Assembly (NCBI GenBank): GCA_947383215.1
Contig: CANDCP010000011.1
Location: forward strand, 1 to 64,000
Length of the DNA stretch: 64,000 bases
Direction: 5' to 3'
From: an uncultured Roseburia sp.
GTDB taxonomy: Bacteria > Bacillota > Clostridia > Lachnospirales > Lachnospiraceae
The position numbers and the translations under genes are program-made. The notes under the pieces are model-generated. The model searched no databases, was not told the origin of the DNA, and worked only from the letters and a program-made list of their open reading frames with translations. Of this stretch, positions 57,459-64,000 are shown piece after piece (position 1 is the first letter of the stretch; each line of letters opens with the position of its first letter).

Positions 57459-57468
57459 AAATAAGAAA

Positions 57469-57511
57469 TAGTATCTTAAGCTCAAAAAAGTTTAAGATGC
57501 TATTTTTTTTT
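57469..57511 (+). terminator. Terminator behind gyrA
   Basis: TAGTATCTTAA (57469-57479) pairs with TTAAGATGCTA (57492-57502) with one mismatch, followed by nine T. It separates the gyrase genes from the downstream operon. Confidence 0.9.
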
Positions 57512-57512
57512 G

Positions 57513-57540
57513 AAAAATATCTGTTTCCTGAATCGTATTC
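57513..57540 (+). promoter_or_regulatory. ECF-sigma-like promoter candidate for the ABC-sigma operon
   Basis: Between the gyrA terminator and the first lipoprotein gene, TGAAAA, 17 bases, then CGTATTCTATATAAAGG. TGAAAC-N16/17-CGTA is the SigW-type pattern. The -10 region resembles the ECF-like candidate at 16137-16176: 13 of 16 bases from GT onward are the same. The ribosome binding site follows almost immediately, so the leader would be very short. No good sigma-A promoter fits this gap. Confidence 0.3.
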
Positions 57541-57560
57541 TATATAAAGGAGGAAACAGT

Positions 57561-59561
57561 ATGAAAATATGGAAATGTTTTGCCTGCTTGACAGTTTTCG
57601 TTTTGTGTCTAAGCGGATGTAATGAAAATAGAGAAACCGATAAAAAACAAAAAACGGAGGAAACATTCTCTTACGATCTAAAGGACGTATCGTCGTTTAC
57701 GGTATCCGGGGGAGATTTGTATGTGTCTTACATCGGAAAAAATAAGATAGAAAAGTTAGGGAAAGACGGAGAGAAAAAAGAGAGCTATGATTTTAGCGAC
57801 GGGGATCATAAATATCTGATGCATTGTGAGAATGAGCTCCTGTCCTTAAATTTTCAAAACGATCATTTATTGCTGGAAGAGATGAATCTTGAGACGAAAG
57901 AACTGAGAAGCAGGAATCTGCAGGATCTGAGAAGACAATTTACGGATATAAAATCGACTGCCGTTACAAAAGAAAATATTTATCTGGTTTATCTGGCAGA
58001 AGTATATGACGGCAGTCAGGAGACGGTTCGTTTTTGCGAGACAGATAGCTATTCCTATATGGGTGAAAAGGCTGTAAAACTCAATCGAAAAACTTTAGAG
58101 ACAGAAGAGATGCCGATTGACAATGTGATTTTTATGTACCAAATATCGGAGAAAGAGCTGATGTTTTACGCGTATGATGAGATCGGGGGGTATTATTTTA
58201 CAATTTATCAGACTGACAGCGAAAAGTTTGGAGAAAAAAATTACAATAACCAATTTGATTTTATAAATGGGTTTGCCGTAAAAGAGGATAAAAAGACAAT
58301 TATTTCCTGTCAAAACGGCAGACTTGTCACAGCCCGGATAGATGACGAAGAAACGCAAGCGGAATTTGCGGAAAATGTTTTTATATGGTATGGGAATAAC
58401 CTGAAGTGTCAGGGAGATGAGGTTTATGTTTTAGACAGTAATCAGGATAAAAATAACATCTTAAGGATGGATTATGAAATGGCAAATCGTGGTAATAAAG
58501 AGATTCGCTTTTATCAGACGCAAATTTTTGAAGAACCTTACGGATGCGGATATAAAATGCATCCGATCGTGTTGGAAGAAGAAGAGTTTGCTCTCTCTGT
58601 TCTTGCAGGGGATATGGATTATGATATGTGTATGATGGATTCTTCTTCTTCTGTTTCCCGGGAAATACGCGATCAGGGAGCTTTTTATCCGTTAAACGAA
58701 GTAAAAAACGTAATGGAGTATTTAGATTCCTGCCACCCGTATATCAAAGAAGCGGCAGTCAATGAAAATGGAGAGGTTTGGATGTTGCCGATTTCTGTGA
58801 GTATTCCGTTTCTTTTATATGGAGAGGAAGGCTGTGAAAAAAACGGAATTGATATGGAAAATATAGAGGATTACGAGTCATTAATTGATAAAGCGGAAAA
58901 AATATGCCAAAATCAGAATTTACAGGAGTGGTATAGTATCAACGGGTTTCAAATACAGAGCGATCTGATGACGCAATATAATTCTGAGTATGCGAAAAAA
59001 GGAGAAAGAGCTTCGTATCAGAATAAAGAGTTTGAAAAAATATGCCGCTTATTAAAGGAAAAAAGCGTTTGGAAGAATCCTGCGCTGCATACATTTATGA
59101 TTTCAAAACAGAGCGTGGAAAAAGAGATATATTATAGTCAGTTTTTATTTGAGCTTAGGACAGATATGCTTAGTCTCGGAGAAGAAGATTTTCAAAATCT
59201 GTCGGCCAGAGAGACGCCGAAAATTGACAGGAAAATGAAAAATAAAGGAAGCTGCGTCTATTTTTGCGTAAATCAAAATTCAAAAAATCTTGAGAGCGCT
59301 CTTTCTTATATCAGCGATTACTGTGAATATATGAAAACGAGAAACGACACTTATATGTTTCAGGATAAGACAACTTATCCGTTTTCCGATTCTTCCCTCA
59401 CAGAGGATTGTTATGAAATATATTCCAATGGAGAAATCTGTTTTGAACTTCCGGAAGAAATATTTTGGAATCAATACCTGGATTTTATGAACGGTAAAAT
59501 AGATTTTGAAGAATTTTCAAAAGAAATCGAACGGAAGACAAATATGTATAACAATGAATAG
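57561..59561 (+). CDS. Lipoprotein: N-terminal propeller-like region fused to ABC solute-binding domain
   Basis: A 666-residue lipoprotein, ATG behind AAAGGAGG, signal ACLTVFVLCLSGC with the lipid Cys in SGCNEN. Residues about 40-290 are short repeated strands (FTVSGGDLYVSYIGKNKIEK, VTKENIYLVYLAEVYDG) of propeller type. From about 300 on it resembles an extracellular solute-binding protein of the sugar class: VLAGDMDYDMCMMDSSSSVS, DQGAFYPLNEV, VNENGEVWMLPISVSIPFLL, EDYESLIDKAEK. The order and the two permease genes downstream support a transport or sensing role. The ligand is unknown. Confidence 0.75.
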   Translation: MKIWKCFACLTVFVLCLSGCNENRETDKKQKTEETFSYDLKDVSSFTVSGGDLYVSYIGKNKIEKLGKDGEKKESYDFSDGDHKYLMHCENELLSLNFQNDHLLLEEMNLETKELRSRNLQDLRRQFTDIKSTAVTKENIYLVYLAEVYDGSQETVRFCETDSYSYMGEKAVKLNRKTLETEEMPIDNVIFMYQISEKELMFYAYDEIGGYYFTIYQTDSEKFGEKNYNNQFDFINGFAVKEDKKTIISCQNGRLVTARIDDEETQAEFAENVFIWYGNNLKCQGDEVYVLDSNQDKNNILRMDYEMANRGNKEIRFYQTQIFEEPYGCGYKMHPIVLEEEEFALSVLAGDMDYDMCMMDSSSSVSREIRDQGAFYPLNEVKNVMEYLDSCHPYIKEAAVNENGEVWMLPISVSIPFLLYGEEGCEKNGIDMENIEDYESLIDKAEKICQNQNLQEWYSINGFQIQSDLMTQYNSEYAKKGERASYQNKEFEKICRLLKEKSVWKNPALHTFMISKQSVEKEIYYSQFLFELRTDMLSLGEEDFQNLSARETPKIDRKMKNKGSCVYFCVNQNSKNLESALSYISDYCEYMKTRNDTYMFQDKTTYPFSDSSLTEDCYEIYSNGEICFELPEEIFWNQYLDFMNGKIDFEEFSKEIERKTNMYNNE

Positions 59562-59571
59562 GAGTCAAATT

Positions 59572-60570
59572 ATGAAAATAAAAAAAACAATTGTATGCGA
59601 AATTATAATCGGATGTAGTCTGTTAATCGGATGCAGTCGTCCGGAAAAAGAAAAAAATGTGGATAATAACAGCGAAATCGTCATTGACGTTGGATTAACG
59701 GAACATACGGAGACAGAAGCATGTTCGGGAATTGAAAAAGGGAGTATGGAGATTGGAAATAAGTCGGAAATTTTGTTGAAGAACGGAAGATATTATCAAT
59801 CAGAAGATAAGAATTTTTTTGTAAATGCGAAAGACGAATTAATTGCAGAGACAGGAGACGGCAACGGCAAGCTGTATGACGGTTTTGTCTTTGGCGGTCT
59901 GAATTATTATAAAGACAGGCTTTATTTTATAGAAAAAAATACTTATAAAGTGTATTCAGTGAAAGAGGACGGAACCGATCTAAAAAATGAGGTAGAGGAG
60001 GAAGTTTATTATCTTCTGATGTGCGAGGACGGGATGGTTTATGTAGATAAAAATAGTAGTCTTTTCCACAAGGAGAACAGCGGAGAAGTGAAATTGATAA
60101 AAGAGGGTCCTGCGATTTGGGAAAATGTATATGGAGAATGGATTATATATGTAGATTTATCCGGGGAGGAACACCCTGTCATCGCCTATAATTTAAAGAC
60201 AGAAGAAGAACATAAAATTTTGGACTACGGTTTTTTTACTGTTTTGTATGACGACGAGCTCTTCTATCAGGGAGAAGATTCTTTTATCTATCAATTAAAT
60301 CTTTTAAACGGAGAAAGAAAAAAGATAGCCGAGGTATGGGGACAAAATTTCGTAAAAATAAAGGACAGGTTATATTTTTGCGGCGGAAATAAAATCAGTT
60401 ATGTAAATTTGACGAATGCCGTTATTACAGATATTTATGATATTGGGAAAAAAACAATCCAGGAAATGTGGGAACAGGATGGAATGTTATATTTTAAAGA
60501 GACTTTTGAGGAGAACGAAACTTATAAAATATATGAACAAGAGACGGGAAATGTGATCGATTATGAATAA
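59572..60570 (+). CDS. Propeller-type lipoprotein (DUF5050-like)
   Basis: A 332-residue lipoprotein: signal CEIIIGCSLLIGC with lipobox LIGC, a spacer rich in Glu/Asn, then repeated strands such as FGGLNYYKDRLYFIEKNTYK, YYLLMCEDGMVYVDKNSS and LFYQGEDSFIYQLNLLNGER, typical of DUF5050-type beta-propellers. AGGAG precedes the ATG, ten bases behind the previous gene; its stop overlaps the first permease start by 8 bases. It probably works outside the membrane with the fused solute-binding lipoprotein. Confidence 0.75.
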   Translation: MKIKKTIVCEIIIGCSLLIGCSRPEKEKNVDNNSEIVIDVGLTEHTETEACSGIEKGSMEIGNKSEILLKNGRYYQSEDKNFFVNAKDELIAETGDGNGKLYDGFVFGGLNYYKDRLYFIEKNTYKVYSVKEDGTDLKNEVEEEVYYLLMCEDGMVYVDKNSSLFHKENSGEVKLIKEGPAIWENVYGEWIIYVDLSGEEHPVIAYNLKTEEEHKILDYGFFTVLYDDELFYQGEDSFIYQLNLLNGERKKIAEVWGQNFVKIKDRLYFCGGNKISYVNLTNAVITDIYDIGKKTIQEMWEQDGMLYFKETFEENETYKIYEQETGNVIDYE

Positions 60571-61372
60571 AAAAAGAAAAAAAATACGGCTGTCCTGGAA
60601 TAAAAAATGTTGTATCTGCATGTTTCCGGCAATTATCGGAACGCTTGTTTTTTCACTTATTCCATTTATCAGAGTCGTCTATTATTCCGGTATAAAAAAT
60701 CAGTTTGATACAAGCTTCGCTCTTTTTTCAAACTATGAGAGAGTATGGAAAAATGAATACTTTAGAATTGCGTTTAAAAACAGCGTGCAGTTAATTTTAA
60801 TCTGTGTTCCCATTCTCGTTGTCATTGCAATTTTAATTTCATTGATTCTTGTCTTTGGTAAAATGCAAAAAAGAAGAATACAGATTGCGTTTATTTTACC
60901 TATGGTAATACCGACAGCCGGCATTGCGGTGATATGGAGACAGTTTTTCTCGGAGATAGACAATATAATTCCCGTGTATCTTTTATTTATCTGGAAAAAT
61001 GTGGGGATTTGTATTATTCTTTTAACTGCCGCCTTTGCGTCGATTCAGAAGGATGTGTATGAAGCGGCCTATCTGGAGGGCGCAAATTCCGTACGACGGC
61101 ATATTTATATGACGCTGCCGATAAGCGCGCCGACGATATTTTTTACAACGCTGCTTTCCATTGTAAATTCTTTTCGGATTTTTAAAGAGAGTTACCTGTA
61201 TTACGGTACGAATTATCCGCCGGACTACGGATATACGCTTCAATATTATATGAATAACCATTTTTTGAAATTAAATTATCAAAATCTGTCCGCTTCTGCA
61301 GTTTTTAGCACCTTATTTGCGGGGATAGTGATTGCAGCCGGAATGAGTTTTATAAGGAGGTTTCAAAATTGA
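60563..61372 (+). CDS. Sugar-type ABC transporter permease (MalF/UgpA-like)
   Basis: Integral membrane permease of 269 residues with six predicted helices (e.g. CMFPAIIGTLVFSLIPFIRV, LILICVPILVVIAILISLIL). It has the EAA loop that contacts the ATPase: VYEAAYLEGANSVRRHIYMT followed by LP, matching EAA-x3-G-x9-I-x-LP. The N-terminal basic stretch and PxxIG motif fit the carbohydrate class. It overlaps both neighbours (8 and 4 bases). No ATPase is encoded nearby; this class often shares an MsmX-type ATPase. Confidence 0.9.
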   Translation: MNKKRKKIRLSWNKKCCICMFPAIIGTLVFSLIPFIRVVYYSGIKNQFDTSFALFSNYERVWKNEYFRIAFKNSVQLILICVPILVVIAILISLILVFGKMQKRRIQIAFILPMVIPTAGIAVIWRQFFSEIDNIIPVYLLFIWKNVGICIILLTAAFASIQKDVYEAAYLEGANSVRRHIYMTLPISAPTIFFTTLLSIVNSFRIFKESYLYYGTNYPPDYGYTLQYYMNNHFLKLNYQNLSASAVFSTLFAGIVIAAGMSFIRRFQN

Positions 61373-62118
61373 AAAAATATTTGTTAAAATTTCTTTTTTT
61401 GATGTCGGCCCTCTTATTTATTCTTCCGATTTTATCGACGATCGGAATGTCTTTCTGGCAGGAAAAGTTATCCTTACAGCCATGGATAGATTTGCTGCTC
61501 GATACGCCCGTATTTTATAAGATGTTTTGGAATTCGATGTTTTATGCGTCTGTAATTACCATTTTAGAACTCTGTGTTGCGACGCCGTGTGCGTTTGGCC
61601 TGGTAACTTCTAAAATACGCGGAAAAAAAATAATTTTCATGATTTATCTTATATTAATGATGATGCCTTTGCAGGTGACGCTCCTTCCAAATTATATCGG
61701 ATTGCGCGAAATGGGACTGCTTAATACAAGGGCGGGAATTATTTTTCCAATGATTTTTTCCGCTTTTGGAATTGTAGTTTTACATCAATATATGTTAAAT
61801 CTCGATGAAGCCCAAATAGAGGCTGCGCGCCTGGAGACAGATTCTGTTATTAAAATATTAATGTATGTGGTAGCGCCGCAGATGAAAGCGTGTATCATTG
61901 CCACGTCTGTCTTTCTATTTGCGGAATGTTTTAATATGTTAGAGCAGCCGATGCTTTTTTTGAAGGAAGAAAGGCTTCAAAATCTGACTGTTTTTATGAT
62001 GAATGCGTCCGGTTATGAGGGAAATGTTTTATTTCCTGCTTCGGTAATCTTTTTGATACCTGTATCAATTTTGTACCTCTATTTTAATGACGCTCTGGAA
62101 AAAGGAATAAAATTATGA
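61369..62118 (+). CDS. Sugar-type ABC transporter permease (MalG/UgpE-like)
   Basis: Second permease, 249 residues with about six helices. It starts at TTG 61369 behind AAGGAGG, overlapping the previous stop. The EAA loop reads IEAARLETDSVIKILMYVVA followed by PQMK; the Gly usually found after EAA is replaced (LETDS for IDGAS), a mild deviation. LPNYIGLREMGLLNTRAGII matches the carbohydrate class. It should pair with the preceding permease. Confidence 0.88.
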   Translation: MKKYLLKFLFLMSALLFILPILSTIGMSFWQEKLSLQPWIDLLLDTPVFYKMFWNSMFYASVITILELCVATPCAFGLVTSKIRGKKIIFMIYLILMMMPLQVTLLPNYIGLREMGLLNTRAGIIFPMIFSAFGIVVLHQYMLNLDEAQIEAARLETDSVIKILMYVVAPQMKACIIATSVFLFAECFNMLEQPMLFLKEERLQNLTVFMMNASGYEGNVLFPASVIFLIPVSILYLYFNDALEKGIKL

Positions 62119-62522
62119 GAGAAAAAAAGGGTCTTCTGTTTTTTACATTGTTTTTCTGGCTTTTTATGATTTTTTTTACTTTATTTTCAAATAATCTGCA
62201 CAACTGTATGCTGACAAAGGCAGAGATTTATTATCCTAAAATGCGGATGTTTTATCTGAAAGACGGAACAGACAATGAAGTAAGACAAAAATGTTATGCG
62301 ATTCCCGCCTGGATGGAGGATTGTGATTTGTTTATTGCACAGACAGAAGAAAAAAACGGGCAAGAGCGAATTTTTGCAAGAAATATTCAAGTTAAGCTTG
62401 GCGAGAAAGAAGGTTTATTTTGTCCGATAATAAGCAATGATTATTTTGGAGAACCTTTAATTTTGCGATCAGAAAACGTACTGTCGGACGGAGAAGAAAT
62501 TTATGTGAAAAATTGGAGATAA
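62115..62522 (+). CDS. Small one-TM protein with HlyD-like C-terminal domain
   Basis: A 135-residue protein: basic start, one transmembrane helix (about 7-26, LLFFTLFFWLFMIFFTLFSN) and an extracellular beta-rich part. The order ERIFARNIQVKLGEKEGLFC, then GEPLILRSENVLSDGEEIYV, resembles the last beta domain of HlyD/RND adaptors (V-x-L-G-x-x-x-G ... L-x-x-G-x-x-V-x-V). The coiled-coil and lipoyl parts of an adaptor are missing. It overlaps the permease stop by 4 bases and ends 2 bases before the sigma gene. The family resemblance is my inference. Confidence 0.6.
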   Translation: MREKKGLLFFTLFFWLFMIFFTLFSNNLHNCMLTKAEIYYPKMRMFYLKDGTDNEVRQKCYAIPAWMEDCDLFIAQTEEKNGQERIFARNIQVKLGEKEGLFCPIISNDYFGEPLILRSENVLSDGEEIYVKNWR

Positions 62523-62524
62523 AT

Positions 62525-63028
62525 ATGGGAAAACAAGAGGAAGATTTTGATGAAATAAAAGAGGCCGTATTTCTGTATAGTAAAATGCTTTTAAGAATCG
62601 CTTTTACTTATTTAAAAAGTATGCATGATGCGGAAGATGTAGTGCAGGATGTATTTCTTGTATATCTGACAAAGAATATAAAGTTTGACAGTGAGAATTA
62701 TAGAAGAAACTGGCTGGTGAGATGTACCGTCAATAAATGCAAGGATTTGCTCAAAGCTTCCTGGTATAAAAGCTGGATTCCGGTTCCGGAAGAAATTGAG
62801 GATTCGATTCCGGAAGAGTCGGAGGTTATCCAGATGGTACTGAAACTGGAAAGAAAATACAGAATACCAATGTATCTTCATTATTGCGAGGGATATTCTT
62901 TAAAAGAAATTGCGGAATTATTAAATAAAAAAGTATCATCCGTCGGAACGTTACTTTCAAGGGGAAGGAATAAACTTAAAGTAATGATAGAGGAAGAAAA
63001 GACGGACGGGAAAGGAGAAAAGAGATGA
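62525..63028 (+). CDS. ECF-type RNA polymerase sigma factor
   Basis: A 167-residue group IV sigma factor. Region 2 (about 15-80) has FLYSKMLLRIAFTYLKSMHD followed by AEDVVQDVFLVYL, the standard region 2.2. Region 4 (about 105-160) has YRIPMYLHYCEGYSLKEIAE followed by a helix-turn-helix (LLNKKVSSVGTLLSRGRNKL). ATG 62525 has GGAG six bases ahead; a TTG four codons earlier is possible. The stop overlaps the downstream start (ATGA). Probably held inactive by the next gene's membrane product and released by an envelope signal. Confidence 0.9.
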   Translation: MGKQEEDFDEIKEAVFLYSKMLLRIAFTYLKSMHDAEDVVQDVFLVYLTKNIKFDSENYRRNWLVRCTVNKCKDLLKASWYKSWIPVPEEIEDSIPEESEVIQMVLKLERKYRIPMYLHYCEGYSLKEIAELLNKKVSSVGTLLSRGRNKLKVMIEEEKTDGKGEKR

Positions 63029-64000
63029 GAGATTTCATGCAAAAATATAAAAAAGAATTAGATGATTTGAAAATCCGGGATTCTTTTGAGGACGAAATAT
63101 TTAATATGATTACAGATTCCCAAAAAAAACGGCTGATAAAAAAGAAATTTTATTTTGCAAAAATAAGCCGTGTTGCAGCTATGCTTTTGTTCTTTATCGT
63201 TATCGGCGGCAGCGGATATGTAATGGCAAAAAGCTGGAATATAGACGATATTTTGCGCGAAAGATTTTTTGATAAGGTGTCGGCCGATAAAATTAAAAAA
63301 GGAGAGTATGATGAACTGGCGGCAAGCGGCGAAAACGGGGAGATCACGGCAAAATGTATAAATACGATGGGAGACGAGCGGACATATATTATGCTGCTTG
63401 AGGTGTCAATAAAGAAGGAAAAAGTGAGAGATAACAGGGATCTTGGATTTGGAATCAAGGCATATTGCAGGGGAGATAATCCAAGCGATTACAAGGTGAC
63501 ATCCTGTCCGGCCGAAGTGACGGAGGAGGACGATGAGACGGTTCGATGTCTTGTAAAATACGAGATGCCTTTGTATTTTGCAAATTATTCTTCGGGAAAA
63601 GATGAGGAGATCATAATCGATATATGTAATTTTATTTTGGATTATAAAGAGAACCCGGAAATTCATTCTGTTTACGAGTTGGAAATTCCGGTAACCTTGT
63701 CTATGGATTCGATACAGAAGGCAGAAAAGATTGAAGTTAATCAAAGTATGATGATAAAAAATCGAAAGGTTTTTATAGAAAATATTTGCCTGTCAGAATA
63801 CAAGACAGAAATTGAGATTAAATTTTATGCAAAGAATTACAACGATGCAAATAAATTCTGGAAAATCATGGCGATGGATTATATTATAGACGATAATTTG
63901 GAATATAAGGATCAGAAAGTATATCTGAAGCTGTATCATAACGGAAATCCGGTTGATTTTGCGGATGATTACAGAGATTATGCAGCAGTTAATTCTTCAG
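63025..64000 (+). CDS. Putative membrane anti-sigma factor (DUF4179-like), partial
   Basis: The frame opens at ATG 63025 (overlapping the sigma stop) and continues to the window end, about 325 codons with no stop. The N-terminal soluble part (about 1-47, KKELDDLKIRDSFEDEIFNM) is followed by a transmembrane helix (about 50-70, RVAAMLLFFIVIGGSGYVMA). The extracellular part is beta-rich (YIMLLEVSIKKEKVRDNRDL). The layout and coupling to an ECF gene fit clostridial anti-sigma factors with a DUF4179-type domain; the family name is from memory. AAAGGAG precedes the ATG. Confidence 0.8.
   Translation, partial: MRDFMQKYKKELDDLKIRDSFEDEIFNMITDSQKKRLIKKKFYFAKISRVAAMLLFFIVIGGSGYVMAKSWNIDDILRERFFDKVSADKIKKGEYDELAASGENGEITAKCINTMGDERTYIMLLEVSIKKEKVRDNRDLGFGIKAYCRGDNPSDYKVTSCPAEVTEEDDETVRCLVKYEMPLYFANYSSGKDEEIIIDICNFILDYKENPEIHSVYELEIPVTLSMDSIQKAEKIEVNQSMMIKNRKVFIENICLSEYKTEIEIKFYAKNYNDANKFWKIMAMDYIIDDNLEYKDQKVYLKLYHNGNPVDFADDYRDYAAVNSS

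Follow-up and report, generated by a model that had tools for sequence, protein, structure and literature searches.

The end of a 64,000-nucleotide stretch of DNA from an uncultured Roseburia sp. (contig CANDCP010000011.1, positions 1 to 64,000; hereafter, the window) carries an operon of seven tightly packed plus-strand genes, g1 to g7, which spans window coordinates 57561 to 64137 according to an open reading frame list and reading of the sequence. Comparative sequence evidence places this operon in a reduced branch of a hybrid family that joins MalFG-type permeases to an efflux-type adaptor, because its small adaptor gene, g5, stands where relatives keep a full-length adaptor and where ordinary permease loci have none. 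We propose, with a probability of about one-half, that its products form a powered complex of the importer type that regulates its own expression and has an adaptor as a docking piece.

A reduced adaptor beside importer-type permeases

The g5 gene (62115 to 62522, plus strand) encodes a protein of 135 amino acids that consists of a single transmembrane (TM) anchor and the membrane-proximal domain of HlyD/MacA/RND-type adaptors. This assignment rests on profile comparisons and on a VIA-align comparison of the fold; the lipoyl, beta-barrel, and helical hairpin domains of such adaptors are absent. Profile-profile comparison of 22 short and 50 full-length adaptors yielded two collinear local matches with approximately 390 columns missing between them, as hhalign skips columns 69 to 460 of the full-length profile. 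The first match pairs columns 8 to 57 of the short adaptors with columns 19 to 68 of the full-length adaptors (E 5.9e-12, possibly inflated by inclusion of the TM helix), and the second, which does not include the helix, pairs columns 58 to 142 with columns 461 to 549 (E 1.6e-10). As a single sequence, g5 gave nothing convincing against Pfam or NCBIfam and no Pfam match above the cut-off. Because the matches are collinear around an internal gap and the gene position is shared, g5 is best read as a reduced derivative of the full-length adaptor, not as a complete member of the HlyD/MacA/RND group. A preliminary description of this DNA had called the protein HlyD-like, a label that was right in substance. 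The permeases that accompany it are of the MalFG type and are not export permeases.

A profile of the first permease (permease A, encoded by g3) matched 116 of 397 genomes of the same family, the Lachnospiraceae. From these matches, 60 loci, one per genome, were picked by hand and combined with a second related cluster from the window's own genome (locus L088) to give a broad-family sample of 61. The reduced branch comprises 42 loci, namely, the window's own (L003), 38 others, and 3 from further searches. As a control, we used 40 ordinary CUT1 permease loci from Lachnospiraceae, one per genome, hand-picked among the matches to another permease of the window's genome. Adaptors were assigned by gene order with profiles built in part from the same loci, and the numbers that follow are therefore counts and not blind tests.

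A full-length adaptor follows permease A in 54 of the 61 broad-family loci, and this is the place that g5 occupies in the window operon. Three of the remaining loci have a short adaptor (220, 225, and 370 amino acids) and four have none, two of these ending within 1.3 kb. A MacB-core-like protein is present in 48/61 loci, and a solute-binding protein is present in 54/61. Within the reduced branch, a short adaptor was counted in 39 of 42 loci (after the permeases in 32 and before them in 7) and none in the other 3. Neither an adaptor of either length nor a MacB-core-like protein was found in the control loci (0/40 for each). A quick tree built from 101 sequences of permease A accounts for adaptor type with 2 changes, compared with a shuffled mean of about 31 (6 unlabeled rows were not counted). 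This tree is unrooted and has no outgroup; the direction from full-length to short adaptor rests on the pattern of internal deletion and not on a root.

The second related cluster in the window's genome lies on another contig (L088:2550-8642) and encodes a 775-amino-acid solute-binding lipoprotein, two permeases, and proteins of 491 and 196 amino acids, with a response regulator and a kinase on the opposite strand. The 491-amino-acid protein matches RND_mfp (TIGR01730, 1.5e-11) and Biotin_lipoyl_2 (1.7e-4), both below the cut-off, and the 196-amino-acid protein matches MacB_PCD at 2.7e-5, two bits below the cut-off. At locus L091, the same two proteins score above the Pfam cut-offs (HlyD_3, 4.5e-9; Biotin_lipoyl_2, 1e-8; MacB_PCD, 7.6e-10). 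The MacB-core-like protein of full-length relatives has no ATPase, and MacB itself, which combines an ATPase with a periplasmic core, is absent from the window operon.

Loci L021 to L026 have short adaptors of 210 to 243 amino acids with a longer C-terminal part (e.g., L021:9580-10299 and L022:8050-8769). By eye, the ends of those in L021 to L025 (GEWIP..LIDW.GW) resemble the ends of MacB-core-like proteins and are perhaps a fused remnant.

The hybrid permease-adaptor family is common in the sampled Lachnospiraceae and apparently undescribed. Among the titles and opening abstract lines of open-licence papers, we found no description of an HlyD-type adaptor working with importer permeases or solute-binding proteins, nor of importers with extracytoplasmic function (ECF) sigma/anti-sigma pairs. 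This silence is weak evidence of novelty because only open-licence papers were covered.

Permease loops and the supply of energy

Both permeases match BPD_transp_1, have EAA loops, and are CUT1-like. Permease A (g3, 60563 to 61372, plus strand; PF00528, 8.9e-13) is of the MalF/UgpA type, as supported by an alignment of 31 relatives, and has the canonical EAA loop EAAYLEGA. Permease B (g4, 61369 to 62118, plus strand; PF00528, 4.2e-8) is of the MalG/UgpE type, and threonine replaces the glycine of its EAA loop (EAARLETDS, at approximately 61800 to 61880). Alignments across the reduced branch revealed the same asymmetry: the glycine is kept in permease A of 39/40 loci and lost from permease B in 42/42 (threonine in 41 and serine in 1). 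In the full-length family, permease B keeps the glycine in 59/59 sequences, and permease A keeps it in 35/61 and has lost it in 26/61, including the L091-type loci. This count for permease A ruled out the expectation of canonical EAA loops in both permeases throughout the full-length family. As judged from these alignments, no subgroup is generally without both glycines; one is often given up, and it is a different one in each group. Such a loss would agree either with a shared ATPase that is gripped asymmetrically or with coupling that has become weaker.

The operon encodes no ATPase of its own. A motif scan found no Walker A motif in any of the seven proteins, and no dedicated ATP-binding subunit was found among the seven genes and the gene downstream. 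The contig extends beyond the window to position 70525, and the 3' end of g7 corresponds to window coordinate 64137 (L003:6025-7137). The next gene is a convergent, minus-strand gene for a chemotaxis receptor of 571 amino acids (MCPsignal, 4.2e-30), which rules out an ATPase just past the window's end.

A candidate for powering the operon lies elsewhere in the genome, which has 69 ABC_tran matches but a single OB_MalK match. The OB_MalK protein is of the UgpC/MsmX type (NF008653, 494.6 bits, above the cut-off) and is an orphan, in that its contig has no BPD_transp_1 match. It carries K74 and N84, residues discussed as features of multitask ATPases in PMC7658222, which also describes several known CUT1 systems that have no dedicated ATPase gene in the operon. 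Among 37 host genomes, OB_MalK was detected in 34. Same-strand surroundings of permease A contain an ATP-binding cassette (ABC) ATPase in 2/61 broad-family loci and 4/42 branch loci, and these are not MalK-type proteins by their length and their 22 to 33% identity to the MsmX-like protein; the control figure is 5/40. Because this one MsmX-like orphan, with its multitask markers, could serve the operon, the operon's lack of an ATPase gene is probably ordinary. The preliminary description had reported the absence of a Walker A protein from the operon and had named a shared MsmX-type ATPase as the simple alternative, and both statements are supported.

Near one cluster with a full-length adaptor, the gene for an MsmX-like ATPase 57% identical to that of the window's genome lies upstream at some distance (L146:11342-12478), which offers a hint as to the ATPase that serves the family. 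A broad-family locus (L132) encodes a 354-amino-acid protein with 37% identity to the MsmX-like ATPase.

Lipoproteins, sigma factor, and candidate promoter

The layout given in the preliminary description, which listed six complete genes and one partial gene, is confirmed: the open reading frames are in place, and the successive junctions from g1 to g7 measure +10, -8, -4, -4, +2, and -4 bases. The first two genes encode lipoproteins with lipobox-like motifs. In g1 (57561 to 59561, plus strand), a propeller-like N-terminal part (residues ~35 to 304) is fused to a CUT1-type solute-binding domain (311 to 666), just as had been described. This domain has the fold of the CUT1 oligosaccharide type (a family-1 type solute-binding protein); g1 matched no Pfam family above the cut-off, and as a single sequence it found only weak, unrelated matches in the PDB. 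The g2 product (59572 to 60570, plus strand) is a DUF5050 lipoprotein (PF16472, 2.1e-9, above the cut-off). Elsewhere in the branch, three similar lipoproteins in a row (440, 443, and 434 amino acids) lie upstream of a reduced cluster (L084:12962-18028). Small secreted proteins, rich in cysteine and histidine by eye, are encoded between lipoprotein genes at L040:2905-3294 and L084:14494-14832 and might be ligands or metal binders.

The operon does contain an ECF sigma factor gene, as claimed. g6 (62525 to 63028, plus strand) has both sigma-70 region 2 (PF04542, 8.1e-11) and region 4 (PF08281, 6.2e-14), and TIGR02937 also scores above the cut-off. g7 (370 amino acids; plus strand, 63025 to 64000 in the window and ending at 64137 outside it) encodes a putative membrane anti-sigma partner, a label that rests on its position and on a hydrophobic segment read by eye. 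Its matches to DUF5643 (0.012) and DUF4179 (0.31) fall below the cut-off, as does every other family, and it is 75% identical in a relative of the same genus (G007).

A candidate ECF-type promoter, TGAAAA-N17-CGTATT, lies upstream of g1 at 57511 to 57539 on the plus strand as an exact pattern match. Its elements fall inside two blocks that are identical between the window's locus and the related locus L004, from the one close relative, a second species (10/10 and 16/16 bases, with 2/8 between the blocks) at fixed spacing. Genome-wide, the pattern has 8 exact matches, compared with 1 in a reversed control, and no sigma-70-type match is listed for the plus strand from 57460 to 57560. By eye, gyrB and gyrA lie directly upstream of the operon, and the -35 element overlaps the T-run of a terminator-like hairpin of gyrA (57470 to 57515, plus strand), which was read from the sequence and has a similar counterpart in L004. 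The terminator scan, whose rule requires 3 G-C pairs, did not list this hairpin. The promoter site named in the preliminary description exists and is conserved in L004, and self-regulation through it is plausible.

Linkage between sigma factor and transporter holds within the genus and thins out beyond it. Among eight genomes of the genus, the transporter occurs in two and g7 in the same two. Across the reduced branch, as counted with a profile built from five sigma sequences and applied to the sampled loci, an ECF gene is adjacent in 5/42 loci from two lineages, and 36/42 have no ECF match, with some loci cut by contig ends. The gene follows the transporter in L003 and L004, precedes it together with a DUF4367 protein in L028, L030, and L032, and lies approximately 6 kb away in L012. 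The corresponding adjacency is 0/61 in the broad family and 1/40 among ordinary CUT1 loci. A single clade for the two lineages is rejected (approximately unbiased test, P = 6.6e-6), and the fewest changes on the unrooted permease A tree are 2. Because, in addition, the sigma factors of the two lineages share 29% identity and the anti-sigma candidates of one do not align with those of the other, separate recruitment of ECF pairs is the simplest reading of these sequences. Upstream of the sigma genes in L028, L030, and L032, no common promoter stood out. The terms DUF4179, DUF4367, and DUF3379 are absent from PMC7406223, a paper on ECF sigma factors.

Other loci adjoin kinase and regulator genes, or AgrB and GHKL-kinase genes. 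For instance, AgrB (1.5e-39) and a GHKL-type kinase lie beside a reduced cluster at L022:702-2918, and similarity clustering places the same genes at L023 and L025. A link between reduced clusters and peptide quorum sensing through these Agr genes is possible.

Competing explanations and known systems

In the explanation that we favor, g1, aided by g2, would capture an extracellular ligand and dock on the g3-g4 permease pair, where g5, held by its one TM helix, would assist docking or gating from the outer side of the permeases. The cycle would be driven by the shared MsmX-like orphan, which would act mainly on permease A through its intact EAA loop. g6 would transcribe the operon from the promoter at 57511 to 57539, and g7 would restrain g6 until an envelope or ligand signal frees it.

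Several observations weigh against this explanation. A Foldseek search with g5 gave no match with E < 0.001 (best, 0.2), and the host genomes of L006, L009, and L010 (3/37, all metagenome-assembled) have no OB_MalK match. Loss of the permease B glycine throughout the branch may weaken ATPase coupling. No family match above the cut-off in Pfam or NCBIfam backs the anti-sigma label of g7. Few branch loci have a linked ECF gene, and the enrichment relative to the controls is modest; the check on conserved linkage proposed in the preliminary description gives a mixed result, with sigma and transporter genes together within the genus and, in the wider branch, adjacent in two lineages whose anti-sigma candidates are unrelated. 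The direction of transport is unsure because exporters are where adaptors and MacB-core domains are otherwise known. Finally, the oligosaccharide-binding fold of g1 may not mean sugar because sugar-catabolic neighbors are scarce.

That scarcity also bears on the best-placed rival, a CUT1 importer of the ordinary kind, which would take up oligosaccharides as nutrients and borrow the MsmX-like ATPase, with g5 as a minor accessory and the ECF pair as a lineage-specific regulator. The CUT1-like solute-binding fold and permeases and the orphan multitask-type ATPase would suit it. To characterize neighbors, the nearest unlabeled same-strand genes were scanned against Pfam (80/96 for the broad family, 49/63 for the branch, and 73/73 for the control); the 16/96 and 14/63 left out by hand were short or ATPase-labeled genes, fragments, genes belonging to the window or to L004, and a few others. 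Among the 73 control neighbors, 14 match SBP_bac_1, and glycoside hydrolases (GH) are common (GH3, 6; GH31, 4; melibiase, 2; GH127, 2; GH2, 2; GH88, 2; best 25 of 77 families). Among the best 25 of 127 families for the broad-family neighbors, in contrast, GH1 is the one glycoside hydrolase, with 1 member of 80, and further singletons are possible. The best 25 of 43 families for the branch neighbors include no glycoside hydrolase, with DUF5050 at the top with 5 and L-fucose isomerase occurring once, singletons again being possible. On these counts, the shortage of sugar-catabolic neighbors relative to ordinary permeases speaks against a plain nutritional role, as does the loss of one EAA glycine, and ordinary CUT1 loci have no adaptor at all (0/40). 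We consider this importer unlikely, if the least unlikely of the alternatives.

The preliminary description had proposed a sensing device in place of a plain importer. Its doubt about a plain importer is supported by the scarce catabolic neighbors and the lost glycine; sensing itself is one possible reading beside import and export. A transport-coupled sensor, in which the permeases with g1 and g5 read an external ligand and signal to g7, would apply the logic of FecA-FecR-FecI to a Gram-positive cell. Consistent with this, the transporter genes overlap or closely adjoin the sigma pair, ECF pairs were joined most simply twice, relatives adjoin two-component or AgrB/GHKL-kinase genes, the permease B EAA loop is altered across the whole branch, and catabolic neighbors are few. 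However, 36/42 branch loci have no ECF match (some being cut by contig ends), very different regulators may do no more than control expression, ECF-free loci show an equally strong EAA change, and contact between g7 and the permeases is hypothetical. We consider the sensor doubtful. Equally speculative is a broader version, in which the widespread Lachnospiraceae combination of importer-type permeases with efflux-type adaptors (and MacB-core proteins) would be an envelope machine that reads signals. The adaptor of the window's lineage would have shrunk to its membrane-proximal domain, and there the complex would report ligand capture directly to the ECF anti-sigma factor, as a Gram-positive transporter-to-sigma relay.

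Least probable of all is an export or self-protection machine, which would extrude or capture an antimicrobial or peptide in the manner of MacAB, its importer-type permeases being reversed or used as a scaffold. It draws on the relatives with full-length adaptors (54/61) and MacB-core-like proteins (48/61), which exceed the Pfam cut-offs in L091. Some loci also have Agr genes, an AraC-type gene, or long ABC ATPase proteins nearby. Against it, there is no MacB ATPase, the window operon has no MacB-core protein, and the characterized systems known to pair EAA-type permeases with a solute-binding protein are importers.

Importer-type permeases combined with efflux-type adaptors run counter to the usual assignment of HlyD/MacA adaptors to exporters, and the hybrid character of the family is easily missed because each piece is named separately. 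The window operon is a small, tractable member of the family, with seven genes, one candidate promoter, and one candidate ATPase. It allows one to ask whether an importer-type permease can be served by the membrane-proximal domain alone, what lies behind the loss of one EAA glycine, and whether signaling from a transporter to an anti-sigma factor is possible in Gram-positive bacteria.

Among known systems, CUT1 importers served by MsmX or MsmK, such as AraNPQ-MsmX of Bacillus subtilis, share with the operon a solute-binding lipoprotein and two permeases without an ATPase gene, and share with the window's genome an orphan UgpC/MsmX-type ATPase elsewhere. The operon differs from these importers in its propeller fusion, the g5 adaptor, the lost permease B glycine, the ECF pair, and the few catabolic neighbors. 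Gram-positive MacAB-like pumps (Spr0693-0695 and YknWXYZ) likewise have a membrane-anchored HlyD/MacA-type adaptor, and the operon's relatives also have a MacB-core-like protein; however, the operon has MalFG-type permeases in place of a MacB permease/ATPase, and g5 is without the hairpin, lipoyl, and barrel domains. With operons that join an ECF sigma factor and a membrane anti-sigma factor to their targets, it has in common a sigma factor with regions 2 and 4, an overlapping downstream membrane gene, and a promoter-like site before the operon, whereas its target is an importer-type permease operon and g7 matches no anti-sigma family above the cut-off. In transport signaling by FecA-FecR-FecI, a transporter and an ECF sigma/anti-sigma pair are united in one unit, as they are here. 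The operon has no outer membrane or TonB part, and contact between transporter and anti-sigma factor is hypothetical.

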